IMG/VR virus record: IMGVR_UViG_3300045135_001923
Span: 1 to 25,757 of that record
Length of the DNA stretch: 25,757 nt
Source of the DNA: a virus
Direction: 5' to 3' (one strand)
The notes under the pieces are model-generated. The model did not search any database. It was not told the DNA's origin and was given only the letters and a program-made list of their open reading frames with translations. This document shows positions 1,428 to 25,074 of the stretch, piece by piece (the first letter of the stretch is position 1; every line of letters starts with the position of its first letter). A program made the translations under genes and the position numbers.

Positions 1428-1568
1428 ATGCGGTTTGACATGGTGGATTATGCGTCATACAGAAGCCAATATGCTGCTGGAAATTTCCAGCTCGGCACGC
1501 AAACTTCGAGGGTTATATTGAGAAAACAAACCATTGAGAAAGCGAGGGCTTATATATGGCGTGCCTAA
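1428..1568 (+). CDS. Possible 46-aa ORF after the structural gene
   Basis: ATG at 1428 opens 46 codons ending in TAA at 1566-1568. It lies in the same frame as the preceding gene and is separated from it by that gene's TGA (1410-1412) and five codons. The peptide (starting MRFDMVDYASYRSQYAAG) has ordinary composition with a basic C-terminal half. No convincing Shine-Dalgarno is visible, and ATG 1440 is an alternative start. It overlaps both the 16-mer element at 1485-1500 and the TATA box of the next gene, so it may instead be non-coding regulatory DNA, or a readthrough extension of the structural protein. Confidence 0.35.
   Translation: MRFDMVDYASYRSQYAAGNFQLGTQTSRVILRKQTIEKARAYIWRA
1485..1500 (+). 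repeat. AGCT-containing 16-mer, copy A
   Basis: TTCCAGCTCGGCACGC is one of five copies of a dispersed element (consensus TTCCAGCTCGCCACGC, 15 of 16 matches here). It lies between the structural gene and the 1578 gene. Each of the five AGCT tetramers found in the window is inside such a copy. The role is unknown; a protein-binding site is the simplest guess. Confidence 0.55.
1549..1558 (+). promoter_or_regulatory. Archaeal TATA box for the 1578 gene
   Basis: CTTATATATG places TTATATAT 28 nt before the ATG at 1578. Archaeal TATA boxes lie about 26-30 nt before the transcript start, so the message would be nearly leaderless. AACCATTGA lies about 20 nt upstream (1529-1537), the reverse complement of the TCAATGGTT found near other promoters here. 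Confidence 0.55.
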
Positions 1569-1577
1569 TGGCTAACC

Positions 1578-2090
1578 ATGAGCGGAACACAAAACACCGA
1601 CCAGCAAATTGTCCTTTTGGCAAAAGCAAGCAGCGAGAACGGATTTCACAATGCACAAGCAACGTGCAATTTTGGAGAGTACCAAGTCCTTTACAGGAAG
1701 TTTGAGGCAGACTACGTACCTCACGACCGCCGCATTGGCGTTGGTTTCATGTACGACATGAACGACTACGAGCACGTTGCTACACTTGATTTCAACCACG
1801 AATCCTACGAAGAGAACGGAGTTTCAGCCTTTGGTCTATGTCAAAACGGCATCACCGTTGATTCATGGAGCCGAGAAGCACGAGACGGCAACATTGACGG
1901 CTTGACCCTTGTTAAGCCTCTTGAGATTGACGAGGACGGCAAGGAATGGGGACACCGCTCCATGATGGTTGGCGACATGATTTACAAGCCAACCACAGGC
2001 CAGGTTTACATTGTTGCGAACTGTGGCTGGCACTCCGCTATGGACAGGGAGTCTTGGGAGATGGAACTCTCCTTTGGATGGCACGATTGA
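1578..2090 (+). CDS. Hypothetical virion-region protein, 170 aa
   Basis: No family is recognised. The protein is acidic and aromatic-rich, with many Gly, Asn, Tyr and Trp residues and mixed beta-type patterning. It has no membrane segment and few basic clusters, consistent with a small tail or decoration protein. The ATG at 1578 is supported by a TATA-like box 28 nt upstream and the absence of a Shine-Dalgarno, as expected for a leaderless start. It is followed after about 40 nt by the baseplate-like gene, so the two may be co-transcribed. A virion role is inferred from position only. Confidence 0.65.
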   Translation: MSGTQNTDQQIVLLAKASSENGFHNAQATCNFGEYQVLYRKFEADYVPHDRRIGVGFMYDMNDYEHVATLDFNHESYEENGVSAFGLCQNGITVDSWSREARDGNIDGLTLVKPLEIDEDGKEWGHRSMMVGDMIYKPTTGQVYIVANCGWHSAMDRESWEMELSFGWHD

Positions 2091-2132
2091 GCCACAGAAA
2101 CACGCTTAAACCGTCCAGCATTTGGTTTGGGT

Positions 2133-3941
2133 ATGGACGATGCCCTTGAACGCTTCCAACGTCTTGTGAGGCGTCCTCTCAGCGATGAATTGGTGATCGT
2201 ACCACCCCAACCTTTGCTCGATGAGATTGAACGTTTAGGTCAAGACCCCAGACGCCCACGCACGGCAATTGCACGCTGGGCTTCTCAAGTGTGGCTCGAT
2301 ACGGTTCACGAGCAGCAGCGTGTGAATCCAGCACCCACGCTTGACGCCAGCCACGCTGAGAAGGAATTGATGCAACGCCCCCAGCACTATCCTACGGAAT
2401 GGGGGCTGGAGTTTATCCCGTTCCCTACGGATATCGGTGGTTATCTAAACGACAAAATCTACACCCACTGCTACACGTCTTTATCCACACCTCGCCCATT
2501 TGACCCACACCTACACGGAACTCTTCCCGCTCCTACGCTGGGCTTTGGGTATCAATTCCTCTCGGCATCTGGCTTCCCCGATGAATACGATATCACCGCA
2601 AGGAGAGGCGGAGGACCCCGTGGCGGGTTTGCCTTCACGACTGGACCCACGGAGGGTGCTTATCCTTCAGCGGTGTTGCCTCAGCCCACGTTCAATCTGG
2701 GAGAGTTGGGTTTCAGCAACGGTGGATGGAATCCCGAAGGACTTCAATGGACGAACCGACCAAAACGCATGATGCTGGGTGGACTACGCAACGGCTGGGC
2801 ACACAAGGTTATGTTTGCACGTTCCCGAACTGTGATGAAACGCAACGTCTACGGACCCGTTGCTGTTGATGAAGCGACACCAAACGCGCCCCTCGTGGTG
2901 TTGAATGGTCTATCTGCCATTCAAGGAATACGAAGAATCTCAGCAAAACGCAAAATGAACGCTCCTACTTTGCTTGATATTGACGTCAATAACACTGCAG
3001 GTCGACGATCTGGAATCGCAAAAGAAGGCGATACCGTTCAGGTTTATGCGGCTCCACGAACATGGGCTAACCCTCCGATAATTTTCACGGGTTTTGTTTC
3101 ATCAATTCAAGAAGGCTCGGACACTTTGACGATAACCTGTAGTGACACGCTGGGGTATTTGCACCGAGAGGTATTGGCGGCAACGCCACCCTATTATCGA
3201 CAAGACGCAGGGTCGGTCATCAAGGACATTATCGCAAACTCGGTCTACAACCTCCCCGTAGGAGCGGTGACCAACGACACGGGCTTCACACTTCCAACGG
3301 GGCTGAATCTGGCGAATAAATCCCGCCTCGCCGCCATTCAAACCATTCTCGGTCTGGTCAATTCAATACCTCGCCTAACCGTTCTGGAAGCCGATGCTTA
3401 TGGCGTTTTACACCTACGGACACTGCTGGAGGTTGATGACACGGACGTGTTCCCGTTGAATGGTGGAGTGTTGCCGAGAACGGGGCTACCTCAAGACTTC
3501 TATCCCATATCGGTCGAGAGGGAGGATGGTGACATTCAATCGTTCAACGTGGTGCAGGTTATCAATGAAGAAGCGAGCATCAGCGAAACCATTCCCTCCC
3601 CCAGCGACTCTCGTTATCCTAGCCGCCCCGTAGTGCGTATGGTGAGAGATAGGTCGATCCAATACGTGAATCAAGCGAGGCTGCTGGGAGAACAATTGCT
3701 CCAACAACAGGGGGCTTCCAAAGCGCGCTGGACGGTCATCGGACGACCCGAAAGGTACGACATCAAACCTGGCGATGTCATTGAGTTTCAAACCGCTGCT
3801 GGAGCCTTGAGCGGGCGTTTTCGTGTGTTCGATGTGGCTTTCAATCTCAGCACAAACATGACGGAAATGACGCTGACAGTCGGTCGTCCTTCACAAGACT
3901 TGCTCACCTCAATACGTCTGGCTGGAGACATTTCGATTTGA
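2133..3941 (+). CDS. Baseplate/tail-hub-like protein (gpD/gp27-like)
   Basis: A protein of about 602 aa. The N-terminal 250 residues are Pro/Gly-rich and unrecognised. From about residue 260 the pattern matches tail-hub proteins of the late-control gpD / T4 gp27 type. It runs through an LDIDVNN strand, a GDTVQVY strand, IIFTGFVSSI followed by LTITCSDTLGYL, an Ile/Leu-rich helical region, and then, near the C-terminus, YDIKPGDVIEF, a Gly-turn and FRVFDVAFNLS with the closing MTLTVGR strand. That order of small beta barrels is the hub signature and supports a contractile or long-tailed virion, as in magro-type viruses. The start could be TTG 2127 or ATG 2133; ATG is preferred. This is a structural-pattern assignment, not a verified match. 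Confidence 0.62.
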   Translation: MDDALERFQRLVRRPLSDELVIVPPQPLLDEIERLGQDPRRPRTAIARWASQVWLDTVHEQQRVNPAPTLDASHAEKELMQRPQHYPTEWGLEFIPFPTDIGGYLNDKIYTHCYTSLSTPRPFDPHLHGTLPAPTLGFGYQFLSASGFPDEYDITARRGGGPRGGFAFTTGPTEGAYPSAVLPQPTFNLGELGFSNGGWNPEGLQWTNRPKRMMLGGLRNGWAHKVMFARSRTVMKRNVYGPVAVDEATPNAPLVVLNGLSAIQGIRRISAKRKMNAPTLLDIDVNNTAGRRSGIAKEGDTVQVYAAPRTWANPPIIFTGFVSSIQEGSDTLTITCSDTLGYLHREVLAATPPYYRQDAGSVIKDIIANSVYNLPVGAVTNDTGFTLPTGLNLANKSRLAAIQTILGLVNSIPRLTVLEADAYGVLHLRTLLEVDDTDVFPLNGGVLPRTGLPQDFYPISVEREDGDIQSFNVVQVINEEASISETIPSPSDSRYPSRPVVRMVRDRSIQYVNQARLLGEQLLQQQGASKARWTVIGRPERYDIKPGDVIEFQTAAGALSGRFRVFDVAFNLSTNMTEMTLTVGRPSQDLLTSIRLAGDISI

Positions 3942-3985
3942 TTCTTCCGTTTGTGTTGAGATTGCGAGCGTTAAAAAACAATCAT

Positions 3986-4008
3986 TTGCTGTGCCGAAGG
4001 CACAGCAA
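3986..4008 (+). terminator. Perfect 10-bp hairpin, possible terminator
   Basis: TTGCTGTGCC, loop GAA, GGCACAGCAA gives 10 of 10 paired bases. It begins 45 nt after the stop of the tail-hub gene. No U-tract follows it; an A-rich run (TTAAAAAACA) precedes it. It could therefore be a transcript-end stabiliser, a protein-binding palindrome, or a terminator for the opposite strand. Confidence 0.45.
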
Positions 4009-4113
4009 CCCAAAAGAACGCAGTCGGAGCCTGTGCTGAGACCCATATATATTCGTTATAGTGTGTATATATCGGTGGGTTAGGTATGGTTTGGAGTTTT
4101 GTTGGTTTCCTTG

Positions 4114-4138
4114 TTGATATTCCGAACCATTGATAAGG
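4114..4138 (+). promoter_or_regulatory. 25-nt promoter repeat, left copy
   Basis: This segment is 24/25 identical to 13686-13710. Both copies sit just upstream of a small ORF, and in each the TTGATAAGG part lies about 29-30 nt before the ATG (4159 here, 13732 there). That is the position of the TATA-like box used elsewhere in the window. The segment also includes GAACCATTGA, the reverse complement of the upstream promoter element seen at 6222, 22600 and 25099. Confidence 0.55.
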
Positions 4139-4158
4139 TAAAACATGGTGGTCGGGAT

Positions 4159-4455
4159 ATGAGCCGAACACGACGATATCACGGACGAGAGAACGGAGAG
4201 GACGCAAAGTTTCACCGCTGGTGGAGGAAGAACGAAGGCGACTGGTCAAGGCACGACCATGACCGCCACAAGGTTCAGACCATCGCCAAGACAGTCGCAA
4301 TTCACGAAGGTGTGAAAATCAAGAGCCGCAAAATGAAGAATCCACCCAACAAAACCCTGTGGCGGTTCCGCGCTCAATTTGGAAAAGTCCGCCCTCTTGA
4401 GGATTGGGAACTTGAACGAGCAGGCAAAACCTCCAGATATAACCACCTCGAATGA
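4159..4455 (+). CDS. Small basic His/Arg/Trp-rich protein
   Basis: A 98-aa protein rich in Arg, Lys, His and Trp, strongly basic and probably nucleic-acid binding. The N-terminal third has a dense His/Arg/Trp patch (KFHRWWRKNEGDWSRHDHDRH), and the centre is Lys-rich. No family is recognised. An in-frame upstream start at 4099 is possible, but ATG 4159 fits the 29-nt spacing from TTGATAAGG and has a GGTGG Shine-Dalgarno-like run at 4147-4151. It immediately precedes the helicase gene, whose promoter motif begins just after its stop. Confidence 0.6.
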   Translation: MSRTRRYHGRENGEDAKFHRWWRKNEGDWSRHDHDRHKVQTIAKTVAIHEGVKIKSRKMKNPPNKTLWRFRAQFGKVRPLEDWELERAGKTSRYNHLE

Positions 4456-4470
4456 TGAAAAGGGTGGGGC
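4456..4470 (+). promoter_or_regulatory. AGGGTGGG promoter for the helicase gene
   Basis: TGAAAAGGGTGGGGC. The octamer AGGGTGGG begins at 4461, exactly 24 nt before ATG 4485. The same spacing recurs at 7687, 14255, 18081 and 24011. Proposed to be a TATA-like element with a G-rich downstream half that drives a leaderless transcript. Confidence 0.5.
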
Positions 4471-4484
4471 ATCCACCTTGAGGT

Positions 4485-6224
4485 ATGGCGGTTGTGAGAA
4501 TCAACATCCCATCGAAGGCAACCTTGCCGAATGAATGGGATAAAATCCAGCCCCATTTTCCAATGCCAAGCCCCAGAAAATATCAAGATGATGCGTTGAA
4601 CGTAGCGTGGTGGGCTTTGGAAAATGATGACTTTGACAACGTTGTGATCGAAGCCCCAACAGGAACGGGCAAATCGGCAATCGCAATGACGCTCCAGCAC
4701 AGGTTTCAATCAGCCTACCTCTTGACTCCCACTCTCGGTTTGACGGAGCAATACAAACGGGACTACGGTCACGTTGTTGAGGAAGTGAGGGGCAGGTCGA
4801 ACTTCCCCTGTTGGATTAACAGCGGAACTGCTCACAACGCTCCCTGCTACAAGAACGGCAAAAGGTGTCCCCATGCAAAGAAGGACGAGGACGACCCCTG
4901 CCCGTATTATGAGCAAAAATGGAGAGGCCAGGACGCCAGATTGACGCTGACGAATCCAGCCTACATCTTCCGAGCGATTCAATTTGATGAGGGCTGGGGT
5001 CAGCGTGACTTTGCTATAATTGACGAAGCACACAACCTCGAACCGTTCTTCATGGGTTTGCTTGAAGTCCAAATCACGGAGGCTGACTTCGATAAGGTGT
5101 GGGGTCCGAAAACCATGCCCATGTTTCATATTCCGAAGGATTGGGAGGACACTATCAAAAAACTGCTCGATGGGGCAATTGCGAGCCGTGACAAAGCCAA
5201 AACGGATCGCGATGACATAGCGGAGGAGACGTTCAATTCAATAGCCCAGCGTTGCTCAATGATGCTCACGCTGTTATCCAAACCCAACGATATGGTGATG
5301 AATCAAGATACGGAGCGTGCTGGACGTGTGCTGACGGGCAAGCCTGTGCGGGTGAATCAGTTTGCGCTGGACAGGCTGGAGCAAATCAGCCGCAAACGCA
5401 TCATGCTATCTGCAACGGTGCTGGACATTGAAACCTACCTCAAATCTCTCGGTCTTGAACACCAAAAGACGCTGTTCATTTGTATCACCGATTCTCCGTT
5501 CCCGTCATCAAACTTCAACATACACTACGCCCCATGTGGGCAGATGTCCTATTCAAAGAGGAAGCACAGCATTCCACGTCAAATCAAAGCCATCGCTGCA
5601 ATTATGCGGAGATATCCAGACCAGCGGGGCGTGGTTCTTCCTCATACCCACGCCATAAGAAGGGAACTCGTTGAAGGATTGGTGGCTGAAGGATTGGGCG
5701 ACCGTATTCTCACACATGACTCGGACGGGCGTGCTCGTGATTTGGTTATCGACCGTTTCATGTCATCAAAGGGTCCAGGTCAGGTTCTCATCTCCACGTA
5801 CGTTGGTGAAGGGTTTGACTTTGCTGGCGATTTGGCTCATTGGCTCGTATTGAGCAAAATACCGTATCTTTACACACCCGACCCCCAGATCGCTCAACGC
5901 ATGGAACAAGACGAACACGAATGGAGGCGTGAGCATGAAGGAACACCAGCGTGTCCGTACGAGCCTCCCAACAAATACAGTGGCAAATTGTGTTCATCAT
6001 TCACCTGTGCCAAGCCGTGTCAACGCTGGTACAACCTCCAAACCACGCTCAAACTCGTTCAAGGGGCGGGGAGAATCCACCGCCGCCCAGATGACGTGGG
6101 GAGCATCTTCATTCTCGATGGCTCTTGGCAGCGTTTCTATCGTCAAAACGGACACCTTTTGCCAGGTTGGTTTAGAGACAACATCTCCGACCCGCCCAAT
6201 TGGTTGAAGCGTCATATCTCTTAA
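4485..6224 (+). CDS. XPD/DinG-type Fe-S superfamily 2 helicase
   Basis: A 579-aa ATP-dependent helicase. Walker A is APTGTGKS at 57-64, the DEAH box is at 180-183 (IIDEAHNL), motif III is around ILSAT-type MLSATVLD, motif V is GEGFDF, and motif VI is QGAGRIHRR at 526-534. Between Walker A and DEAH lie four cysteines (109, 121, 128, 139), placed as in the [4Fe-4S] domain of XPD and DinG helicases, which unwind 5'-3'. Likely roles are fork opening, repair or transcription-linked unwinding on viral DNA. A second four-Cys cluster (490, 503, 508, 512) is inserted just before motif VI and is not part of the standard fold that I know. The start is fixed by the AGGGTGGG motif 24 nt upstream. Confidence 0.88.
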   Translation: MAVVRINIPSKATLPNEWDKIQPHFPMPSPRKYQDDALNVAWWALENDDFDNVVIEAPTGTGKSAIAMTLQHRFQSAYLLTPTLGLTEQYKRDYGHVVEEVRGRSNFPCWINSGTAHNAPCYKNGKRCPHAKKDEDDPCPYYEQKWRGQDARLTLTNPAYIFRAIQFDEGWGQRDFAIIDEAHNLEPFFMGLLEVQITEADFDKVWGPKTMPMFHIPKDWEDTIKKLLDGAIASRDKAKTDRDDIAEETFNSIAQRCSMMLTLLSKPNDMVMNQDTERAGRVLTGKPVRVNQFALDRLEQISRKRIMLSATVLDIETYLKSLGLEHQKTLFICITDSPFPSSNFNIHYAPCGQMSYSKRKHSIPRQIKAIAAIMRRYPDQRGVVLPHTHAIRRELVEGLVAEGLGDRILTHDSDGRARDLVIDRFMSSKGPGQVLISTYVGEGFDFAGDLAHWLVLSKIPYLYTPDPQIAQRMEQDEHEWRREHEGTPACPYEPPNKYSGKLCSSFTCAKPCQRWYNLQTTLKLVQGAGRIHRRPDDVGSIFILDGSWQRFYRQNGHLLPGWFRDNISDPPNWLKRHIS

Positions 6225-6257
6225 TGGTTCAAAAAATCAAGGTACGGGGTTTATATG
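6222..6257 (+). promoter_or_regulatory. Promoter: TAATGGTT element plus TTTATATG box
   Basis: TAATGGTT at 6222-6229 is followed, exactly 28 nt from its first base, by TTTATATG at 6250-6257 and then GTGGTGGGGG. The ATG at 6279 lies 29 nt after the first T of the box. The same two-part layout with identical spacing occurs at 22601-22636 and 25100-25135. Confidence 0.65.
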
Positions 6258-6278
6258 TGGTGGGGGCGTGCGGCGACC

Positions 6279-6362
6279 ATGAGCGAAGATGCAAACCGCC
6301 ATAACTTGAAAGTGAAAATTGAAACAGAAGAGTACATCTATTGGGAATACGTGGAGGCTTGA
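6279..6362 (+). CDS. 27-aa leader ORF
   Basis: ATG at 6279 opens 27 codons to TGA at 6360-6362. It encodes an acidic, Glu/Tyr-rich peptide (MSEDANRHNLKVK at the N-terminus). The ATG lies exactly where a leaderless start is expected from the TTTATATG box. The downstream gene starts three bases later at GTG 6365, and its Shine-Dalgarno (GGAGG, 6354-6358) lies inside this ORF. It may be a real micro-protein, or a leader peptide that couples translation to the downstream gene. Confidence 0.5.
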   Translation: MSEDANRHNLKVKIETEEYIYWEYVEA

Positions 6363-6364
6363 AC

Positions 6365-7441
6365 GTGTCTGCGTTGCTAGCCCGACAGGCTTCTCTATGG
6401 CAGAAACAGGAAGCCAAAGGGGAACTCCCAGATGAACTGTACTCAGCATTGGCTGACGGTCATGCCTCAGCCTATGAACGCAGAATCATACGCAACCTCG
6501 CCAAGATTTCACGGATCGTTGAAACGGACGGAACGATAAGACCGTACGCTGTATTCTCACAGGATTGGTTGTACCAGCACAGTGAGTTTGGGTTGGTTCA
6601 CAAGTGCGAACTGTGTGGACACGAGCCAATCGTTGAGAACTGCGTGATAGAAAATCAAGAATCCAAAAAGCGGATATTCATCGGCAACACTTGTGTGCTA
6701 CGCTACATTGAAGTGAGAGACAAGAGCGGAAAACTCATGTCCCAGCGTGAGAAGGCTGAGTTTTTGAAAGAGGAAATGAGCGCAGCGAAGAAGGAGTTTC
6801 GCCGCCAAGACTTTGCCGCACGTCACCCAACCGCCATGAAAGACCTCGCCAGATTTGAACCCATGATGCGGGAACGCAAGAAACTCAAGACACTACACAA
6901 GCAGGTCGTATCCCGCATTGTCAAGCATGGTTATTTGGGTCCGAAAATCGACAAAGCATTCTCGGATTTCATGCTGACGGCTGAGGCTGACTTCAAAGCA
7001 TGGAATACAGAAAGAGCGAGGCGGGCTGAAGAAGCACGCCTACGCTCGGAGCGTATGGCTCTTGAAATCGCAAAGAACCGCAACGTGTGGCTGAAGGAAT
7101 CAAAAGAATGGCTCGAACAGTGTGAGGGGATAACAACCAACACATGGGAAGAAGGCATGGTCAACCGTGTGGCTGACAAAATCAAAAGTCGAGGGCGTGA
7201 ATCCCTACGGCATGGAATGGCCAGGTTTGCTGAAGAGATGGACGCCCGTGTTCAAATGAACGAAGGCGGAGCAACAAACCCAATCTCGGTGCAATTGTTG
7301 AGCATACCAGCCGACTCCTTGAATGAATGGGAGCAGGGCTTTGTCACGTCCGTTTGCACACGTTTGGAGGCGGGACGATCATTATCACCAGCCCAAACCC
7401 AAGTCGTGCAGAAACTCATTAAACGACTGGCGGAGTCTTGA
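6365..7441 (+). CDS. Zinc-finger/coiled-coil protein, 358 aa
   Basis: The N-terminal part has a Cys motif, CELCGH (about residues 80-85), followed some 25 residues later by IGNTCV. This CxxCG...GxxC layout is common in small phage zinc-binding domains. The middle (about 130-270) is Lys/Arg/Glu-rich and helical, probably coiled coil. The C-terminal segment (WEQGFVTSVCTRLEAG followed by LSPAQTQVVQKLIKRL) is a short helical module also seen in phage proteins of unknown role. GTG 6365 is chosen because GGAGG at 6354-6358 is well spaced; an upstream TTG at 6341 overlaps the leader ORF. Function unknown; DNA or RNA binding is plausible. Confidence 0.68.
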   Translation: MSALLARQASLWQKQEAKGELPDELYSALADGHASAYERRIIRNLAKISRIVETDGTIRPYAVFSQDWLYQHSEFGLVHKCELCGHEPIVENCVIENQESKKRIFIGNTCVLRYIEVRDKSGKLMSQREKAEFLKEEMSAAKKEFRRQDFAARHPTAMKDLARFEPMMRERKKLKTLHKQVVSRIVKHGYLGPKIDKAFSDFMLTAEADFKAWNTERARRAEEARLRSERMALEIAKNRNVWLKESKEWLEQCEGITTNTWEEGMVNRVADKIKSRGRESLRHGMARFAEEMDARVQMNEGGATNPISVQLLSIPADSLNEWEQGFVTSVCTRLEAGRSLSPAQTQVVQKLIKRLAES

Positions 7442-7445
7442 CCGT

Positions 7446-7706
7446 ATGGAGCCGCCCAAGAAGGTGCTGACGCCCCAGCGTGACGATTTCCCGTCAAGGC
7501 TTGCAGACGTTGTCGGCACTGGTGTTGTCAAAGTCTGCCCAACGTGTAAACGTGAAGCCAACCTCCCCACGTTGATTCTCGCTCCCGTTGATACCTGGCC
7601 AAATCAAGCGATAGTGTGTGGGCAGAACCGTTGTGGAATCGTTTGGGTTCTCGGACCCGTGCCACATCACGCCCGTTTTATTGATGAGGGTGGGAATGAT
7701 GGCTGA
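7446..7706 (+). CDS. Zinc-ribbon protein, 86 aa
   Basis: Two cysteine pairs, C31-x2-C34 and C58-x4-C63, are separated by 23 residues and flanked by beta-prone hydrophobic strands (IVCGQNRCGIVWVLG). This is the zinc-ribbon pattern found in archaeal transcription and replication factors. ATG 7446 starts 5 nt after the previous stop and has GGAG at 7432-7435. The longer frame from 7323 only shadows the upstream gene. The 3' end contains the promoter motif for the next gene, which begins at 7711. A regulator or accessory DNA-binding factor is possible; the specific role is unknown. Confidence 0.65.
   Translation: MEPPKKVLTPQRDDFPSRLADVVGTGVVKVCPTCKREANLPTLILAPVDTWPNQAIVCGQNRCGIVWVLGPVPHHARFIDEGGNDG
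7687..7694 (+). promoter_or_regulatory. AGGGTGGG promoter for the 7711 ATPase gene
   Basis: TTGATGAGGGTGGG, with AGGGTGGG starting exactly 24 nt before ATG 7711. It lies inside the 3' end of the zinc-ribbon gene. This spacing selects 7711 over the in-frame starts at 7618, 7696 and 7699. Confidence 0.5.
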
Positions 7707-7710
7707 GGAC

Positions 7711-9711
7711 ATGAGCGACAAAATCGTGGTCAAGCAATCAACGGAGACCGCTTCAAAATACGAGGCTACGGTCGAAGGCTATCCGCTCATCTTTGCGTTC
7801 TTGAAGTCATCAAAGAACCGCATGGACTTCATGGTCGAGCATGACAACAAACCTCACGGAACGTACAACCTGCTCAGCCAACATTCAATCAACAGGCTGG
7901 CTAAATCCCTCGATATAGCGGACTCCGCTAAAAATGCCTTCAATGTTGGAGTCTTGACGGTTGGCACTATGCTCCGAGATGGAGAATACGAACCTGCACC
8001 AATTGTCGATAGAAGAGTCGCTGAGGTTGAAACGTATGCTGGGAAGATGTCGAGTCGTGGAGTTATTGACGCCAATATCATCGAGGACTTTCTGGGCGAT
8101 CAGCATCTGCTTGACGTTGTGAACGAAGTGCTTCACGGTTCGAGAGGCGTGCCTTTTGTTGGTGATGATGCAAACCTACTCCTCACGTTCTTGGTCATGC
8201 TCTCATGCAAAACAGACTCCCCGCTGAATCTGGAAATGGTTGGGCAATCCTCCAGCGGTAAAACCTATCTCACCTTGACGGCTCGCAACGGCTTCCCCAA
8301 ATCTATGTGCATGGTGCTGGCTGGTGCTTCCCGTGAAGCCCTCAAATACGACTACGATGAGATAGATGAGGAAGGCAATTTCATAGTCCACGTTGAAGGT
8401 CGCTGTATCATCATTCTTGAGAAGGATGAGTCGGAGGCGTTTATCCGCAAAATGAAACCGCTCATGAGCGGTGACGATAAGGAACTCGTGTGGAAAACTC
8501 CAATCAAGAACGACCTCACGGGTGAAATCGAGACACGGGACTTCATCATCAAAGGACAGCCGTCTTTCATCACGCTGACCACCCGCAACCCACGAGAGGC
8601 GGAGCAAATCACCCGTCAATTGTTGATGACGCCCGACACCACGACCGAGAAGGTTGCGGCGGTTGTGAGCAATTCACTGAACGCCAAAGCCCGACCCGAT
8701 GAAATGTTGGTGCATCCAGACGTTGAACTGCTCCAAGCATCTATGCTCAATCTCAAGCAATACAGGGTCCGCAACATTTTTGCCCCGCTCATGGTGGACT
8801 TCTTCCCAGCACGCAACGCCCAACACCAAAGAGACATCAACAAAGTGCTGTCGATTATTGATGCTGTGACGTTGCTTCACCAAAAGCAACGACCGATACA
8901 CCAACACAACGACCGTGAATACCTCATGTCGTCCATTGAGGACAATATCATCGGCTTGATTCTTTGCGACCTCGTGTTGCGAGCCAGCCTTAGTGGAATC
9001 CCAGATGACTCATGGATCGTGTTCAGTGAATTGCAGTCAATGGAGGACGCTAAACGCCCGCTAACAGAGGATAACATTCTCCAATGGCTCAACATTCACG
9101 CCTTTTCATGTTCAAAGAATGCCCTACGTGAGAAGCACCTGCCCACGCTGGAGGACGCTGGTTTGATTGAACTCGCCAGGCGGGGTGGAGGACGTGGAGG
9201 CGGTCGCAAAACATGGCGTATCGTCAAGACACGTCAGGGTCTTTTGGAGACGTACGCGCTGGCTCCGCTCTTTGTTGAGTCAGCACGCAACAATCTGCAA
9301 ACCGTGATCGACGAATTCCAGCCCGTTATTGACGGCTGTATTCCGCCCAAGCGGAGCCGCAGACTTGACAGGGGCGAAAAGGAACTTCTCCAAACGCTGG
9401 GGTGCGGCTCCAAAACAGGCTCGTTGATATACCGTTCTCTGTTCTTGGGAACGTACCTCAACCACACGGGCAGAAACGGTGTTTTGTTTGACATAGTGGG
9501 CGATGTTCCAGCTCGTGACGCATTATTCTCTCGGACTCCAGCGTGGCTTGACACTACGCTGAAAAGCACCGCAACGGAGACGCTGGGCAAGAAGCGTGAA
9601 GCACGTGAGAAGGTCAAAGAGGCGACAAAGATTGCTGCTGTCGGTGAAAATGCCGATGACCTTTGGAACGCTTTGGCGGACGCCCACCTATTCGATGAGC
9701 CTTCTTTATGA
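7711..9711 (+). CDS. P-loop ATPase with winged helix, candidate replicative helicase
   Basis: A 666-aa protein. Walker A is GQSSSGKT near residues 178-185 and Walker B is IIILEKDE near 232-239, followed by an R-rich sensor-like region (TTRNPREAEQITRQLL near 290-306). The GxSSSGKT P-loop, the following fP...v...sreALkYdy segment and the acidic Walker B resemble helicase-type ATPase domains attached to primases in mobile elements. A winged helix is visible at about 450-515 (NILQWLNIHAF to KTWRIVKT, with a Gly/Arg-rich wing). The N-terminal 140 residues are unrecognised. No MCM or DnaB-like gene is present in the window, so this is the best candidate for the fork helicase besides the XPD-like protein. 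An ATPase is clear; a helicase is inferred. The start follows the AGGGTGGG spacing. Confidence 0.62.
   Translation: MSDKIVVKQSTETASKYEATVEGYPLIFAFLKSSKNRMDFMVEHDNKPHGTYNLLSQHSINRLAKSLDIADSAKNAFNVGVLTVGTMLRDGEYEPAPIVDRRVAEVETYAGKMSSRGVIDANIIEDFLGDQHLLDVVNEVLHGSRGVPFVGDDANLLLTFLVMLSCKTDSPLNLEMVGQSSSGKTYLTLTARNGFPKSMCMVLAGASREALKYDYDEIDEEGNFIVHVEGRCIIILEKDESEAFIRKMKPLMSGDDKELVWKTPIKNDLTGEIETRDFIIKGQPSFITLTTRNPREAEQITRQLLMTPDTTTEKVAAVVSNSLNAKARPDEMLVHPDVELLQASMLNLKQYRVRNIFAPLMVDFFPARNAQHQRDINKVLSIIDAVTLLHQKQRPIHQHNDREYLMSSIEDNIIGLILCDLVLRASLSGIPDDSWIVFSELQSMEDAKRPLTEDNILQWLNIHAFSCSKNALREKHLPTLEDAGLIELARRGGGRGGGRKTWRIVKTRQGLLETYALAPLFVESARNNLQTVIDEFQPVIDGCIPPKRSRRLDRGEKELLQTLGCGSKTGSLIYRSLFLGTYLNHTGRNGVLFDIVGDVPARDALFSRTPAWLDTTLKSTATETLGKKREAREKVKEATKIAAVGENADDLWNALADAHLFDEPSL
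9506..9521 (+). repeat. AGCT-containing 16-mer, copy B
   Basis: TTCCAGCTCGTGACGC has 14 of 16 matches to the consensus TTCCAGCTCGCCACGC. It lies inside the coding region of the 7711 ATPase. In-gene occurrence argues that the element is kept for a DNA-level function or arose by chance from a favoured word. Confidence 0.4.
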
Positions 9712-13644: not shown

Positions 13645-13660
13645 GCGTGGCGAGCTGGAA
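13645..13660 (-). repeat. AGCT-containing 16-mer, copy C (inverted)
   Basis: On the minus strand this reads TTCCAGCTCGCCACGC, the exact consensus. Extended to 20 nt (13642-13661) it is a perfect inverted match to 25058-25077. It is the only copy in this orientation. Confidence 0.6.
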
Positions 13661-13731: not shown

Positions 13732-13866
13732 ATGAGCAGAAACATCAGCCTAAGCAGAACCCGTCCACGTTGCCCTTGCTGTGGCGGACGTCAAGAGAGA
13801 ATAGATGACACCTGGATTGCGTGCATTCCATGTGCAGAGAGCGAAGTTTGGTTCGAGGAGGCTTGA
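13732..13866 (+). CDS. 44-aa zinc-ribbon micro-protein
   Basis: ATG at 13732 to TGA at 13864-13866. The peptide has two CxxC pairs, C14-P-C-C17 and C31-I-P-C34, separated by 13 residues, after a basic N-terminus (RTRPR). It ends in an acidic Trp-containing tail. This is a minimal zinc ribbon, likely binding nucleic acid or RNA polymerase. The TATA-like repeat about 30 nt upstream supports the start, and the next gene begins 2 nt after the stop with its GGAGG inside this ORF, so the two are coupled. Real coding is supported by the ordered Cys motif and the tight spacing. Confidence 0.62.
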   Translation: MSRNISLSRTRPRCPCCGGRQERIDDTWIACIPCAESEVWFEEA

Positions 13867-13868
13867 GC

Positions 13869-14240
13869 ATGACCTCGATCACCATGCGTCATTTCACATC
13901 TGGAAAAACCGTCTTCACGTTCAAGGATTGGACAGCCACCGACTATCGTGAAGTTAGGAGCATTTCATTTGACATCTCGGACCCACGCACCGATTTCTAT
14001 GCGGTGATGGTTGATGGCACTGACTACACTATCACAAACAAAAACGGAGTCAAAACCGCAATGGTTGACAGTGGGCTTCAGCAGACCCGTCATATGTATC
14101 AATTGAAAGACTCGGCTGACTTCAGCCAATGCTACGAAACCCGCAACGAAGATGCAGAAACCCGCCTACAGGCGGCGTTCATGTTGCTTCAGTCCGTCAT
14201 CACCTTGATTGATGAAGGCGACTGCTTCCTTGAATGGTAA
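13869..14240 (+). CDS. Hypothetical protein, 123 aa
   Basis: No family is recognised. The N-terminal half is beta-patterned (TVFTFKDWTATDY, VRSISFDISD, FYAVMVDGTDYTI). The C-terminal third is a helix ending in an acidic tip (VITLIDEGDCFLEW). ATG 13869 is preferred over the in-frame GTG at 13821 because the latter would overlap the zinc-ribbon gene, while GGAGG lies 8 nt before 13869. It is co-transcribed with the zinc ribbon and lies just before the clamp gene, whose promoter begins after its stop. Confidence 0.6.
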   Translation: MTSITMRHFTSGKTVFTFKDWTATDYREVRSISFDISDPRTDFYAVMVDGTDYTITNKNGVKTAMVDSGLQQTRHMYQLKDSADFSQCYETRNEDAETRLQAAFMLLQSVITLIDEGDCFLEW

Positions 14241-19127: not shown

Positions 19128-19498
19128 TGTTGGACGACAGCCCAGACCCGCTGACGTTGGACGACAACCCAGACCTGCTCGCAATTATCCGTGAGCGGCT
19201 AGAATTGGGAGCGGCCAGGTACGGACACGGGCTGAGGGCTGAGGACGACACAACCCAATGGGGAACGAAAGAGGACTCATGGGTTGAAATGGGGCTGGAG
19301 GAGATTTTGGATATGACAATTTACATCGCCTGTGCGATGCTACGGGTCCGAAAATACGAAGCCGAAGCGCGTCAAGCGTTGAAAGATGCAAGGATTAAAC
19401 GCCAGCAGGCTCAAACTATGAGGGACGAGGCTTTTGATGAGATACAAAAGGGTGGGGGTTCATGGTTGGCACGATGGTTCAAAAAACGGCAGTCTTAA
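19127..19498 (+). CDS. MazG-like helical protein
   Basis: A 123-aa protein. The central part (RERLELGAARYGHGL, a Trp-containing linker, then EEILDMTIYIACAMLRV near 59-75) resembles the phage MazG-like all-alpha fold, in which ExxD acidic residues coordinate Mg2+ for NTP pyrophosphohydrolysis. Only the EExxD half is clear, so activity is uncertain. The C-terminal 50 residues are a charged helix ending in a basic WLARWFKKRQS tail. ATG 19127 overlaps the clamp-loader stop (TGATG), and GGAGG lies about 5 nt upstream, so it is translationally coupled. It also overlaps the start of the polymerase gene. Confidence 0.5.
   Translation: MLDDSPDPLTLDDNPDLLAIIRERLELGAARYGHGLRAEDDTTQWGTKEDSWVEMGLEEILDMTIYIACAMLRVRKYEAEARQALKDARIKRQQAQTMRDEAFDEIQKGGGSWLARWFKKRQS
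19449..19456 (+). promoter_or_regulatory. AGGGTGGG promoter for DNA polymerase
   Basis: CAAAAGGGTGGGGG. AGGGTGGG starts 25 nt before ATG 19474, one base off the 24-nt spacing seen elsewhere. It lies inside the MazG-like gene. The earlier in-frame ATG at 19462 would be only 13 nt away. Confidence 0.4.
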
Positions 19499-22149
19499 TC
19501 GTTGGTGTGGACTATCAAGACGACCCGCTGGTCACGACTCTCCGTGTCAAGACGCTGGAGGGCAAATCACACAACATAGAAGTGACGGGGATTCAGCCAC
19601 GCTTTTGGACTGAAAAAGACCCGTCCCAGATGAACCTACCTGCTCAAGTGAGCAAAGCCAGCCCGTCCCGCTTCAAGTCCATCACAGGCACACCCCTGTA
19701 TGAAATCCGAGTCAACAAACCGTCCGATATCCGTGAGGTTAGGGAGTTTTTCTATCCACACTATTGTGCTGACGTTCCGTGGGCGAACCTTGTACGCTGG
19801 ATCGCTGGCTGGACTGCAGTTATTGACGTCAATACGGCTCTCTTGAATGGAACTCAGCGTTTTAGACCAAAGGACATCACCGCATCCGATGTTGATGTTG
19901 GGCTGTTCAAACTCGACACCATGTATTTCGATATTGAGACTGAAGATTGGCTGGACGTTGATGACCCGCAGGGGCGTATTGTCAGCATCGCAATCTATGA
20001 TGACCGAACCAAACGGCACGTGGTTGCGACTACAGCGCACACATCGGAACGACAGGTCAAGCGGTTTCTATCCTCTCAAGACGCCCTGCACGGTGTTGTT
20101 GAACACGAGAACGATATCCCAGCACTTGATATTGACAAAATAACGGTCGTCAACATTGAAGGTGATGACGAGGACGAGAAGGAGGCGGCGTTAATGTGGT
20201 GGTTCAAGCACACGATTGAGCAATTCGACCCAGACGTTATCGCTGCTCACAACGGCAGGGACTACGATATCCCGTATTGCCGAAACCGTTGTAGGGTCCA
20301 AACGAGAGCCATGAGGCAACAACACGCTGGGAACGTTCCCGTGTATCACCGCTATCCCAGATTATTCGAGAAGCGGCGCGGGCTTCGTCCGCACTTTGAC
20401 ACCAAGATGGCGTATGCCGAGCAGGTTCAAGGAGCGGCATTGACAACGGGGCAGTCGTCTTTGGCTTGGATGGGCGGTTCAACGCTGGGCTACGGCAAAG
20501 TGCCGAGAACCTCTATCGTTGATATGATGAAGAACGACCCCATGATGCTCGCTGTTTACAACATTTGGGACAACGTAGTCGCCGCCAGGTCTATGGAAAA
20601 ACTCGACCTCGTTGGCTTCTATGTGTTCAAGACAGCGTGGCACAATTCGACCCTACACTTTGCCCACAGCAATATGCTCCTCGTTGAGGACATGATGGGG
20701 CATTTGCTTTGGGAACGTGATACGGTCATGCCTTCCCTCGATGTAGTCCGTGAGCGGCTCCCCCGTAGCGGTATCGAGCAGGGCGGGTTTGTCATGGACG
20801 CTCCCACAGGAGTTTGGGAGAACGCTATGGAGTTGGATAATTCAAAGGAATACCCCAGTGCCATTATCAGCGGCAACCTTGACCCAGCCACCAAAGTGAA
20901 CCCAGCAGACTATCCAGATGGCTATCCCTTCCCAATCGCAACCACCCCAGCGGGGCGTGTGTACCGTCAAGACTTCGAGGGATTGATGCCAAGCATTCTC
21001 CGATACCTCGCAACCAACCGTGACAAGGTACGAGCCGAGATGAACGAGGCTGAGAGCAGGGGAGAATATGAAGAAGCGGAACGGCTCAACAAAAAGCAAC
21101 GGGTCATGAAGGAGAACATGAACTCGTGGTACGGTGTGCTGGGTTCGGGGCGTACAGAAAAGACACGGGGGCGTCCGTTTAGGCTTGCCGACCCAGAAAT
21201 CGGCTCCGACATAACGGAGATAGCCCGTGTTCACAACGATTGGAACAAGAACTGGATCGAGAAGGTCGGTGTGGAGTTTGACCCCAACGAGGGGGCGGTT
21301 TCATTGAGAACCCTAAACATTGATAAACCGACAGCCCATCGGGTATCGGACTCGGACTCCAGCGGCACGCTTCTCCGCTTCTCCGTGTTGTACCAAGACA
21401 CGGACTCGTGCAAAGTGTCAATCGTCAATCCACCGCCAGGTATCACACAGGCTCAAGTCGCCACGATTGCACATCTGCTTTGCGATGGCTTGAATGAGTC
21501 GTTTCACGAATTCGTTCAAACCACGCTGGGTATTCCGAAGAATGAGTTTTTTGAAATCAAACCCGATGCGTTCTATGCTCGCTATTTCCAATGGGGAGTG
21601 AAGAAGCGGTACGCCTACGTGGATTTCAGTGGCAAGTTTGGTTATCGTGGTGTTGAGATGCGACGATCTTCCACCCCTCCAATCGTCAAGACGTTTCAGC
21701 AGACGCTCTTTGATTGCATTTTGAACGGTGGAGGACGTCAAGAGATAAACACGCTGGTGCGTACGTTGAAAGAGCAAATGCTGGACCCAGCCGCACACGC
21801 TGACGTTGAGTTTGGACAGCCTCACGGTATCAAGAAGGCTGGAACAATGGCTCACCGAGCCGCCATGTGGAGCAATAGCCAGCTCGCCACGCAGTTTGAA
21901 TTGGGCGATAAGCCCGTCATTTACACGGCTCAATCAACACCCAAAGGACTCCCATCGAACCGCATGGTCGCTCTTGAATGGGGGGAGAATCCAGCCGATT
22001 GGGGTGTTGTTGTTGATCGAGAAGCGAGCATCGACCGTTTGTTTGCTCAATCCAACTCCTTCTCGGAAATCTTGGGTGCGTTCAATACGTCATGGGAGCG
22101 TGCGTTGGCTGGCATGAGTCAAGCAGATATGGGTGAGTGGTTCACTTGA
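19474..22149 (+). CDS. polB: B-family DNA polymerase with 3'-5' exonuclease
   Basis: About 891 aa, a full-length archaeal-size PolB. Exo I is MYFDIETED (near 153), Exo II is NGRDYDIPY (near 259) and Exo III is YNIWD (near 361). Polymerase motif A is LDNSKEYPSAI (near 453; the common SLYPS is SKEYPS here), motif B is KENMNSWYG (near 545), motif C is YQDTDS (near 639), and the KKRYAYV and YRGVEMRRSSTP segments (near 709-730) contact primer-template. All catalytic acidic residues are present, so it should be active and proofreading. No intein is visible. It is the viral replicase, working with the PCNA-like clamp and primase. ATG 19462 is an alternative start. Confidence 0.95.
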   Translation: MVQKTAVLIVGVDYQDDPLVTTLRVKTLEGKSHNIEVTGIQPRFWTEKDPSQMNLPAQVSKASPSRFKSITGTPLYEIRVNKPSDIREVREFFYPHYCADVPWANLVRWIAGWTAVIDVNTALLNGTQRFRPKDITASDVDVGLFKLDTMYFDIETEDWLDVDDPQGRIVSIAIYDDRTKRHVVATTAHTSERQVKRFLSSQDALHGVVEHENDIPALDIDKITVVNIEGDDEDEKEAALMWWFKHTIEQFDPDVIAAHNGRDYDIPYCRNRCRVQTRAMRQQHAGNVPVYHRYPRLFEKRRGLRPHFDTKMAYAEQVQGAALTTGQSSLAWMGGSTLGYGKVPRTSIVDMMKNDPMMLAVYNIWDNVVAARSMEKLDLVGFYVFKTAWHNSTLHFAHSNMLLVEDMMGHLLWERDTVMPSLDVVRERLPRSGIEQGGFVMDAPTGVWENAMELDNSKEYPSAIISGNLDPATKVNPADYPDGYPFPIATTPAGRVYRQDFEGLMPSILRYLATNRDKVRAEMNEAESRGEYEEAERLNKKQRVMKENMNSWYGVLGSGRTEKTRGRPFRLADPEIGSDITEIARVHNDWNKNWIEKVGVEFDPNEGAVSLRTLNIDKPTAHRVSDSDSSGTLLRFSVLYQDTDSCKVSIVNPPPGITQAQVATIAHLLCDGLNESFHEFVQTTLGIPKNEFFEIKPDAFYARYFQWGVKKRYAYVDFSGKFGYRGVEMRRSSTPPIVKTFQQTLFDCILNGGGRQEINTLVRTLKEQMLDPAAHADVEFGQPHGIKKAGTMAHRAAMWSNSQLATQFELGDKPVIYTAQSTPKGLPSNRMVALEWGENPADWGVVVDREASIDRLFAQSNSFSEILGAFNTSWERALAGMSQADMGEWFT
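21877..21892 (+). repeat. AGCT-containing 16-mer, copy D
   Basis: AGCCAGCTCGCCACGC has 14 of 16 matches to the consensus, with the last 14 bases identical. It lies inside the polymerase gene, coding for S-Q-L-A-T. Confidence 0.4.
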
Positions 22150-22595
22150 CACGAACCAGCAAATACACGCTGGCATATCGTCTATTGCGTGAAAATTGCG
22201 GACTCACCCACTTTGAGGTTCGCCAGATTTTGAAAACTCATTTCGGACCCTTAGCCCTCCACGAGAACCTGCTGAAGCGGGAACTCAAGAGGGAGAAGGA
22301 GGAACTCCAGCCCCTAATCCAGACCCTCGCCCTAATGTCAAACCAAGATGACGCTAAGGGAGCCGCTCAACGGCTCCGCTCGCTCATTGAATCCGACAGC
22401 AAATACGACTACGTTATCTGCCGTGAAAGTGCGAAACTCATACGCTCGTGGCATCCAGATTGGGGTGAGGCTGAACGTCAAGAGATGGAGAAGGTGCTGG
22501 CTTGGTTGCGTGTTAAGGAGCAAAGACGCGCCCTGCGGACGTGGAGGAGCCGCAACCTGCTGACGTATCTGCGGGTCAAAGGTCTAAACGTCTAA
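22137..22595 (+). CDS. Hypothetical helical basic protein, 152 aa
   Basis: No family is recognised. It is almost entirely helical, with many Arg, Lys, Leu and Glu residues. The N-terminal part (ENCGLTHFEVRQILKTHFG) looks like a helix-turn-helix. The middle is a charged helix (LLKRELKREKEELQPLI), and the C-terminus is Arg/Trp-rich (KEQRRALRTWRSRNLL). DNA binding is plausible. GTG 22137 overlaps the polymerase stop by 13 nt. It is the last gene before a strong promoter region and may be translationally coupled to the polymerase. Confidence 0.6.
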   Translation: MVHLTRTSKYTLAYRLLRENCGLTHFEVRQILKTHFGPLALHENLLKRELKREKEELQPLIQTLALMSNQDDAKGAAQRLRSLIESDSKYDYVICRESAKLIRSWHPDWGEAERQEMEKVLAWLRVKEQRRALRTWRSRNLLTYLRVKGLNV

Positions 22596-22599
22596 ACTC

Positions 22600-22637
22600 T
22601 CAATGGTTCAGCAAAACAAGGTGGGGGGTTTATATGG
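22600..22637 (+). promoter_or_regulatory. Promoter: CAATGGTT plus TTTATATG, MoxR operon
   Basis: TCAATGGTT at 22600-22608 and TTTATATG at 22629-22636, with the first C to first T spacing exactly 28 nt as at 6222 and 25100. The gene begins at 22713, so a leader of about 55 nt is predicted. It is A-rich (CAACAAAAACAAAAAAACAGGAG-type) and carries a Shine-Dalgarno, unlike the leaderless genes. Confidence 0.65.
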
Positions 22638-22712
22638 TGTGGCTTCTTAGCCTACATCAGCCCGAAGGAACAGGGCGACCAACAAAAACAAAAAAACAGG
22701 AGAATGAAGAAC

Positions 22713-23915
22713 ATGGGAATGATTGAAAATATGAGAGACGCAGTGGAAATGGCTGGCGGTCGCATGAGCGAGGAGGCTTACCTTCAAGCAGTGCAAACGC
22801 TAATCCAGAATGACGGTGGAAACACGAGCATCGAGAGTTTGAGGGCAAACGCCTTCGCCAAGAGATACATGGTGCCAGCAGGTGTCATGCGTGTGACCAT
22901 TGGAGACACCAAAGAGGTATGGCTTCAAGAGAAGGCAGAACAAATCATCGAAGGCACGCTGGTTGGCGGAATGGCTCCAGCAGCGACCGTTGAACTTGAC
23001 TACCACACAGGCGAGGGTGCTTACAACGGCATCCAGATTCAGCCTGTTGACCAATACCCTCAACACCTACACGCCAACATTTACAAGCCAGGTTCGGTTT
23101 TGTTTGAATCAACCAACAAAGACGAACTGCGTTTGATGAGCATCGCATACCGCAAAGGACACAACATGATGTTTACGGGTCCGAAGGGTTGCGGCAAAAC
23201 CGCCGCAGTCAAATCCTTCGCCAGCCACATCGGTCTGCCTGTCCTCCGTGTCAATTGCTCGGAAGGTATCACCGAAGACCAATTCATTGGATATCGTACG
23301 GTTGAAGATGGCAACGTTGTATGGGTTGACGGACTTCTTCCGATTGCTATGCGATACGGTTGCCTTTTGCTTCTCGATGAGTTTAACGGAGCACGACCCG
23401 AAATCCTGATCGCTCTAAACAGCGTGGGCGACAGCGGTACGTTGCTTCTTCCTTTGAACGACAACGAGGTTGTCAACGCTCACGACTCCTTCCGCATGGT
23501 TGCGACCATGAACCCAATGGACGGATACGAAGGCGTTCAAGAAGTCAACCAAGCAACAAAAGACAGGTTCGCTTTGCAGATTGACTTCGACTACCTTGAA
23601 GCCGAGAAGGAGATAGCAGTTATCCAAAAGGTCAGCGGTGTCACAAACCCTCCGCTTGCCCGTGAATTGGTGGCATTGGCAAATGACCTCCGCCGCCTAC
23701 GTAAAGACCGCACGCTGGAGTCCGACACGTCCACCCGTACCCTCATTCAAATGATGGATATGAGCACCGACATGAACGTCACCGAATTGGTTGACTACAT
23801 CATGGTTGGCAAATATCAACCGCACGAGGTTGAGGACGTCAAGATGGCGGCACGAGCACGCCTCTCAGCATACGGTAGCACGCCTTCACCATCAAGCGAC
23901 ACCGTTGCCGCTTGA
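22713..23915 (+). CDS. MoxR/CobS-like AAA+ ATPase
   Basis: A 400-aa protein. The N-terminal 130 residues are helical then beta-rich and unrecognised. The AAA_5-type core has Walker A GPKGCGKT at 156-163, a NCSEGITEDQFIGYR segment (pre-sensor beta-hairpin region typical of MoxR/CobS), Walker B CLLLLDEF at 217-224, sensor ATMNP at 264-268 and an Arg finger in ATKDRF near 281-286. MoxR/CobS ATPases work with VWA or CobT-type partners to remodel proteins or insert metals; the matching CobT-like gene starts at 25157. Phage cobS genes are known but their role is unclear. ATG 22713 is preferred over 22704 because GGAG at 22699-22702 then has a 10-nt spacing. Confidence 0.82.
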   Translation: MGMIENMRDAVEMAGGRMSEEAYLQAVQTLIQNDGGNTSIESLRANAFAKRYMVPAGVMRVTIGDTKEVWLQEKAEQIIEGTLVGGMAPAATVELDYHTGEGAYNGIQIQPVDQYPQHLHANIYKPGSVLFESTNKDELRLMSIAYRKGHNMMFTGPKGCGKTAAVKSFASHIGLPVLRVNCSEGITEDQFIGYRTVEDGNVVWVDGLLPIAMRYGCLLLLDEFNGARPEILIALNSVGDSGTLLLPLNDNEVVNAHDSFRMVATMNPMDGYEGVQEVNQATKDRFALQIDFDYLEAEKEIAVIQKVSGVTNPPLARELVALANDLRRLRKDRTLESDTSTRTLIQMMDMSTDMNVTELVDYIMVGKYQPHEVEDVKMAARARLSAYGSTPSPSSDTVAA

Positions 23916-23952
23916 GGACGGTATCACGCTTATCTGGGGCAAGTGTTCCAAC

Positions 23953-23995
23953 GTGGCGGGGGTATTTGCCCCTTCTCCCTCTCAGCCCCCGCCAC
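23953..23995 (+). terminator. 10-bp GC hairpin after the MoxR gene
   Basis: GTGGCGGGGG (23953-23962) pairs perfectly with CCCCCGCCAC (23986-23995) around a 23-nt pyrimidine-rich loop. It lies 38 nt after the stop and just before the next promoter motif. It could end or protect the MoxR transcript. No T-run follows. Confidence 0.45.
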
Positions 23996-24004
23996 ACCCC
24001 CTCC

Positions 24005-24018
24005 ATTAAGAGGGTGGG
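24005..24018 (+). promoter_or_regulatory. ATTAAGAGGGTGGG promoter for the coiled-coil gene
   Basis: AGGGTGGG starts at 24011, exactly 24 nt before ATG 24035. The string matches 18075-18088 over 14 bases, so the coiled-coil/RFC-large pair and RFC-small share a promoter type. Confidence 0.55.
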
Positions 24019-24034
24019 CAGAACACTTGAGGAC

Positions 24035-24193
24035 ATGAGCGAGAAAGACCTCAACCGAAGAATCGAAGAACTTGAGCAACGTGTAGCCACGCTGGAGCGT
24101 TTGGTGGATAATCTGGGCGAGGCATTGAGACCTCGCAACAAACTCCACCACAGCCAGCGGAGGATTGACGGTGAATATCACACCAAGAACTGA
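24035..24193 (+). CDS. 52-aa coiled-coil micro-protein
   Basis: ATG 24035 to the stop at 24191-24193. Residues 4-33 (LNRRIEELEQRVATLERLVDNLGEALR, shown in part) follow a clean heptad of Leu, Ile and Val, a short parallel coiled coil, then a basic tail. The leaderless start is supported by the AGGGTGGG motif 24 nt upstream. Longer in-frame starts at 23912 cross the hairpin and are unlikely. It overlaps the RFC-large-like gene by 23 nt and supplies that gene's GGAGG, so the two proteins are made together and may interact. Confidence 0.6.
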   Translation: MSEKDLNRRIEELEQRVATLERLVDNLGEALRPRNKLHHSQRRIDGEYHTKN

Positions 24194-25052
24194 ACTGATT
24201 GGACCCAAACGGAGATATGCCACCTGCAAGTCTTGGTTTCAAGGCTGGAGCGAAGGCAACGCCTCGCAGAACCCTCTCATCATTGTCGGAGACACGGGTT
24301 GCGGTAAAACAACCGTAGCAACGGCACACGCCCGTTTGTTTGGGTTTGACCTCATAACCTCCGATGGCGGTGATGAACGCAACACAGACCACTTCAAACG
24401 GCTTAATTCGGACGGTCGAATGCCTACGTTCTTTGGAGAACGCAGAGCCGTGTTGATTGAGGACTCCTCGACGATCACCAAAGCGTGCTGGGATATCGTC
24501 CGTTCCTACGGTTTGGCATTCCCCTGCATCATCACCTGCACCAGCGAACTCGACATCCCGTACAACGTCCGCAAATCTGGACTCATGTGGAATCTGGAGA
24601 ATCCAACCGCTGACGATCTGCAGACCTATGGTGAGCAGGTTGTTGAGCGGCTGGGCTTGCCCCATGATTTCACCGATATTGCTGGGGCGGCTGGAGCCTG
24701 CCAAACGTGGAGAGGAATCGAACACCTTCTCAAAACGTCAAGACCTGGCTCGGACTATTCATCAACCCTACAGACTCCAATAAGGATGGGGCAAGAACAG
24801 GTATCCGCAATTTTGCGGGGCGACTACAACCGACCGATATCCGTACACCCGATGGCATTGCTCACTACAGCCGAATACAACGGAACGGACCCCAGCGTGC
24901 TGAAGACCGCCAATTGGCTGTACTCTCAATCGTGGGCGGTTGAAGGACTCAGCGGGGTTGCTTCCTCATATCTGGCTACGTTGAGGGCAAGGACTCAAGA
25001 CAAGCCTCCATTCCGTAAAAGGAAGATAACGGGTGCAAACCGTAGGACGTAG
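24171..25052 (+). CDS. RFC large-subunit-like AAA+ ATPase
   Basis: A 293-aa protein. Walker A is GDTGCGKT at 40-47. Then comes FGFDLITSDGGDERNTDHF, which resembles the ASDxRxxxxF motif of RFC large subunits. The Walker B strand AVLIED at 93-98 has Glu then Asp where Asp-Glu is usual. PCIITCTSELDIP matches the large-subunit sensor 1 region, the middle is a helical lid, and the C-terminus is a collar-like helical region with a basic tail (FRKRKITGANRRT). Shorter than cellular RFC-L (about 480 aa). It probably pairs with RFC small (18105) to load the clamp. GTG 24171 is preferred because GGAGG (24159-24163) lies 7 nt upstream; TTG 24165 is too close. Confidence 0.68.
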   Translation: MNITPRTELIGPKRRYATCKSWFQGWSEGNASQNPLIIVGDTGCGKTTVATAHARLFGFDLITSDGGDERNTDHFKRLNSDGRMPTFFGERRAVLIEDSSTITKACWDIVRSYGLAFPCIITCTSELDIPYNVRKSGLMWNLENPTADDLQTYGEQVVERLGLPHDFTDIAGAAGACQTWRGIEHLLKTSRPGSDYSSTLQTPIRMGQEQVSAILRGDYNRPISVHPMALLTTAEYNGTDPSVLKTANWLYSQSWAVEGLSGVASSYLATLRARTQDKPPFRKRKITGANRRT

Positions 25053-25058
25053 GCGGAA

Positions 25059-25074
25059 TTCCAGCTCGCCACGC
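25059..25074 (+). repeat. AGCT-containing 16-mer, copy E
   Basis: TTCCAGCTCGCCACGC, the exact consensus. Within 25058-25077 it forms a perfect 20-nt inverted repeat with 13642-13661. It is intergenic, 25 nt before the CAATGGTT promoter element. Confidence 0.6.

Follow-up and report, generated by a model that had tools for sequence, protein, structure and literature searches.

A putative regulator-binding site retains AGCT in one lineage of a magrovirus-type virus group from which this word is nearly absent

The window analyzed here, that is, the complete stretch of 25,757 nucleotides of the IMG/VR virus record IMGVR_UViG_3300045135_001923, encodes PolB, a clamp-loader-like AAA protein, an ERCC4/helix-hairpin-helix nuclease, a helicase, a PD-(D/E)XK nuclease and a tail protein, and additionally shows a weak match to LigD-type primase-polymerases. 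The archaeal-type replication genes of magroviruses (PolB, ERCC4 nuclease, primase, PD-(D/E)XK nuclease, clamp loader) are present, and the tailed-virus structural module (terminase, portal, protease, major capsid protein) is found on two sister contigs, L015 and L356. This gene content matches the published descriptions of the Poseidoniales magroviruses, which include PolB, the ERCC4 nuclease, the PD-(D/E)XK nuclease, a primase-like protein, the clamp loader and the tailed-virus structural module (PMC10160649, PMC12999244). The assignment is made by gene content, on which the window appears to be part of the genome of an archaeal tailed virus of the magrovirus type. Many relatives of the window are present in IMG/VR; no capsid relatives were found in the phage collection, and genome scans for a host yielded no relative. 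The features relevant to the present analysis are the following.

1485..1500, plus strand: site 1, TTCCAGCTCGGCACGC, intergenic, 77 bp upstream of the ATG at 1578
1532..1558, plus strand: promoter-like element CATTGAGAAAGCGAGGGCTTATATATG, of the same sequence as L356:13687-13713, where a site is likewise located upstream
1578..2090, plus strand: gene following site 1, encoding 170 aa without a family match
9506..9521, plus strand: site 2, TTCCAGCTCGTGACGC, within the ORF 7618-9711, in the frame VPARDA (VPSRDS in the nearest relatives)
13645..13660, minus strand: site 3, exact TTCCAGCTCGCCACGC, intergenic, 73 bp upstream of the ATG at 13732
13732..13869, plus strand: small ORF downstream of site 3, about 45 aa, CxxC-rich, zinc-ribbon-like by eye, no family match
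21877..21892, plus strand: site 4, AGCCAGCTCGCCACGC, inside PolB, encoding SQLAT
25059..25074, plus strand: site 5, exact TTCCAGCTCGCCACGC, intergenic, 82 bp upstream of the ATG at 25157
25115..25135, plus strand: promoter-like element TCAATGTGCGGGGTTTATATG; the orthologous promoter of the closest relative, G001, is conserved but lacks the site
25157..25757, plus strand: gene following site 5, with a weak match to a PHROG peptidase, continuing past the end of the window; relatives contain a VWA-type DASGSMG motif

The tetranucleotide AGCT occurs in the window five times, at 1489, 9510, 13653, 21881 and 25063, compared to 127 occurrences expected under a maximal-order Markov model, a comparison proposed in the initial annotation, and 99 expected from the base composition. 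That annotation, made by eye, had reported five occurrences where about 100 would be expected; the exact count bears this out, and four of its five positions are exact, the third having been given as 13651. It had further claimed that every AGCT lies within a near-copy of a 16-mer and that three of these copies are intergenic and two are located in genes. Indeed, all five are contained in matches to TTCCAGCTCGCCACGC, with one mismatch at 1485, two each at 9506 and 21877, and none at 25059 and on the minus strand at 13645, and all fall within CCAGCTCGNNACGC, the invariant part of the 16-mer; sites 1, 3 and 5 are intergenic, and sites 2 and 4 lie within ORFs. A sixth match to TTCCAGCTCGCCACGC, at 8804, has three mismatches and no AGCT, and relatives show similar coding sequence at the same place. 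Shuffled sequence contained a mean of 0.26 TTCCAGCTCGCCACGC matches, with a maximum of two. No copies of the site with a broken AGCT and no degenerate AGCT-less version were detected. The other depleted words in the window include CCGG (no occurrences) and GGCC (six).

The same motif recurs on the two sister contigs. Contig L015, which encodes the terminase, the portal, the protease and methyltransferases, including an N6/N4 methyltransferase, carries the 16-mer along with the word profile of the window (AGCT 4/84, CCGG 0, GTAC normal), and its four AGCTs all fall within CCAGCTCG, with two of them forming an inverted pair. This pair (L015:2767-2798), with TTTT as the spacer, is located inside a methyltransferase-like ORF that apparently lacks the catalytic N-terminal part. 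Judging from the profile, the sample and the gene order, L015 matches the window as part of the same genome. Contig L356, which comes from the same metagenome as L015 and was found by a capsid search that made no use of the motif, contains only two AGCTs, in CCAGCTCGGCACGC and CCAGCTCGCCCCGC, and its last 20 bases are the first 20 of the window. Together, the three contigs contain 11 AGCTs in 60 kb, where approximately 306 are expected; all 11 are in CCAGCTCG, and nine are in the full 14-mer site, one of these with a mismatch. A search for the segment linking the window to L015 did not find it, and the gene order in the relative G005 gives an estimate of about 8–14 kb of the genome missing from the three contigs. 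Exact-match viral contigs other than L015 have ordinary AGCT counts, and a degenerate motif scan yielded no AGCT-depleted contig among the matches listed. An assembly or adapter artifact was considered and rejected: the in-gene copies preserve the reading frame without indels, and the motif is also present on separate contigs.

Examination of related viruses shows that the absence of AGCT extends far beyond this genome. No AGCT was found in 27 PolB relatives, in 54 loci matched by the protein encoded at 7618-9711 (about 2,400 expected), in five genomes of about 80 kb each (about 400 kb in all) or in the 44 relatives from the last scan (about 2,270 expected), and 80 capsid loci contained two (about 3,100 expected), of which one is in the motif and belongs to the same virus as the window; these sets overlap, so that the figures are not additive. 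Contig G003 contains one further AGCT close to its end, where it differs from its near-identical relative G005 by two bases. At L295:4001, a capsid-bearing relative contig contains a lone AGCT outside the motif, in the context ATTAGCTTTG, which could be a sequencing error or a real exception. Unrelated viral contigs have mostly ordinary AGCT counts. Compared to codon shuffles, AGCT is at zero in six of the six relatives tested, and palindromic words are depleted beyond what composition and codon use would produce. The search for the 16-mer in relatives, which the initial annotation had put forward as a trial of its own proposal, went against it: the 16-mer is absent from related viruses, and the closest relatives have no site at the orthologous promoter or in PolB. 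The site is therefore lineage-specific, and the absence of AGCT characterizes the virus group as a whole.

This avoidance probably reflects host restriction. A similar situation has been described in the HF1-group haloviruses: palindromic tetramers are missing altogether from these archaeal tailed viruses, AGCT being missing from HRTV-7, and the authors ascribe this to host restriction (PMC7230728). In that case, however, no exception restricted to a single longer word was reported, whereas here the absence spans a large virus group in which one lineage retains AGCT only in a promoter-linked motif. Neither word avoidance nor such a motif is reported in the searchable magrovirus papers (PMC10160649, PMC12999244).

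AGCT is not the only avoided word in this group. Codon shuffles identify many further words at or near zero, and the set differs by lineage. In G005, G007, G019, G021 and G024 (L231-L250), dozens of words 4 to 6 letters in length are absent or nearly so compared to the shuffles, for example, TCGA (0/498) in G005 and CCAG (1/508) in G021. Some avoided words survive in particular contexts: in G005 (loci L231-L234, 78 kb), GTAC is found in GTACGCG in 35 cases of 35, with a mean spacing of 2.26 kb and a coefficient of variation of 0.51, more even than any of 5,000 random sets, and the depleted CGCG survives mainly in CGCGCCC in several magrovirus lineages (L038, L067, L098, L049, L085, L042). In the window itself, all six GGCCs (1998, 4926, 7219, 7597, 13383 and 19213) are part of GGCCAGG, which overlaps CCAGG, a pattern consistent with an exempt context, with a count near the codon-shuffle expectation; AGTA and TACT are strongly depleted, and the four remaining AGTAs (1678, 6331, 13249 and 16333) are all within GAGTAC. 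The possibility that survivor words such as GTACGCG are under positive selection was considered and dropped because common tolerated words exceed codon shuffles three- to sevenfold anyway, and GGGGCAGA in G005 turned out to be a coding repeat.

Overlapping modification or enzyme preference could explain the retention of avoided words in special contexts. Given that other magroviruses keep such words only in particular contexts (GTACGCG, CGCGCCC and GGCCAGG being the cases in point), AGCT might be tolerated in CCAGCTCG or in the 14-mer because it is methylated there by a viral or host methyltransferase or left uncut, in which case the 14-mer would be a site of modification or self-marking and not an operator. 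We regard this as a less likely alternative, with which the N6/N4 methyltransferase gene of L015 is compatible, as are the two CCAGCTCG copies without the ACGC half, close to the 2.8 that would be expected in genes absent avoidance. Permission, however, creates no copies. In codon shuffles of 56 kb of genes, 203 AGCTs are expected and seven are seen, compared to 2.8 expected and seven seen for CCAGCTCG and 0.11 expected and five seen for the 14-mer. Nor does an exempt context predict placement before start codons and at promoters.

Within genes, the site is a feature of the DNA rather than of the coding sequence. The in-gene copies are in differing reading frames, and where the window has SQLAT, the block is conserved among 24 PolB relatives, in most cases as N-[LI]-[GD]-T; the PolB copy thus replaces residues conserved in relatives, which argues against a coding origin. 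A peptide origin, with NN as codon wobble in PARHA, was rejected because the true frames in PolB and the methyltransferase-like ORF differ and a CCN-GCN-CGN version without AGCT is absent. It is very unlikely that the motif is a small mobile or copied repeat that recently spread through the virus, even though the copies are near-identical with none decayed, two form the inverted pair around TTTT in L015, and the closest relatives have none: PolB and the ORF 7618-9711 align with relatives without gaps, indicating substitution rather than insertion, the flanks are unrelated among the copies, and the placement is non-random.

At five of the 10 loci, the gap that separates the 14-mer from the following start codon, measured from the 14-mer end, is 77, 73, 82, 78 and 81 bp, and only 1.4 % of random positions are 70–85 bp before a start (P = 1e-7 for five of 10 loci), with the qualification that the interval was chosen post hoc, after the data had been seen, and that the gene list was hand-curated; with purely automatic gene calls, three loci only (77, 78 and 81 bp) are at such a distance. 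Four of the 10 loci are intergenic compared to 5.9 % of the sequence (P = 0.002). All three strict combinations of CATTGA/TCAATG and TATA-like elements preceding a gene start in the 60 kb have a site upstream; two of these promoter-like elements share an identical 27-bp sequence, and the spacers between them and their sites, which lie 31 and 35 bp further upstream, are unrelated to each other. The in-gene copy at L356:4608 is at the right distance from a start but has no clear TATA box, and about half of the loci are within genes with no promoter nearby. Seven of the nine strong copies follow the direction of transcription, and the promoter copy at 13645 is inverted.

The sites are also spaced more evenly than by chance (at least 3.2 kb as the minimum, P = 0.004 across the three contigs). 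Even spacing, together with the orientation of most copies along transcription, would suit a genome-wide maintenance site, involved in replication, packaging, Chi-like recombination or genome organization, of which copies are needed every few kilobases. We consider this rather improbable in view of the intergenic preference, the location 73–82 bp before starts and the lack of an equivalent motif at the same places in any relative.

Because AGCT is kept only in one word that often lies at a fixed distance before gene starts, this word is probably a valuable control site. The interpretation we favor, to which we assign a probability of roughly one half, is that CCAGCTCGNNACGC is the asymmetric putative binding site of a lineage-specific magrovirus transcription regulator, with the AGCT core retained despite a group-wide avoidance that is most likely due to host restriction. 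Under this scenario, the regulator would bind the site at promoters, with further sites inside genes, and avoidance acting on the whole group would have removed all other AGCTs. The model could comprise two layers, with CCAGCTCG tolerated, so that L015 would have acquired its two incomplete copies by chance (2.8 are expected in genes), and with selection acting on the 14-mer within this tolerated context. The suggestion of the initial annotation that the word is a site with its own protein, kept against selection on AGCT, is supported in part and gives the best fit to the evidence, namely, the clustered placement before start codons, the promoter linkage, the override of coding constraint in PolB and the recurrence on two further contigs of the same virus; among the roles it listed, a viral regulator is favored, and no finding points to packaging, partition or replication. 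Against this interpretation stand the in-gene loci away from promoters, the inverted promoter copy, the lack of a clear TATA box at L356:4608 and the absence of the site from PolB and the orthologous promoter in the closest relatives; furthermore, no DNA-binding regulator was recognized among the ORFs scanned in this incomplete genome.

The nearest analogy might be the operators and stoperators of mycobacteriophage L5 and its relatives, asymmetric sites of 13–14 bp with many copies scattered over promoters and other locations, most of them pointing in the direction of transcription (PMC9283540). The site described here is likewise asymmetric, with many dispersed copies both at promoters and in other places. 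Unlike in L5, there are fewer copies, some of them well inside genes, one promoter copy is inverted, the core is an avoided restriction-type word, and there is no recognized repressor gene, so that the site may work like the L5 system rather than belong to it. A more elaborate variant, which we consider unlikely, is that AGCT is forbidden in magroviruses almost without exception and that this lineage has made a shielded control site of it, such that CCAGCTCGNNACGC, when bound or modified, would control viral genes and at the same time keep AGCT safe from the defense that eliminates it elsewhere.

There are few experimental handles on uncultured marine archaeal viruses. The near-complete loss of a word across a virus group points to a defense that is conserved among the hosts, whereas retention of a word in a single promoter-linked motif is a sign of a viral regulator; methylation sequencing and simple binding assays would be ways to look for them.
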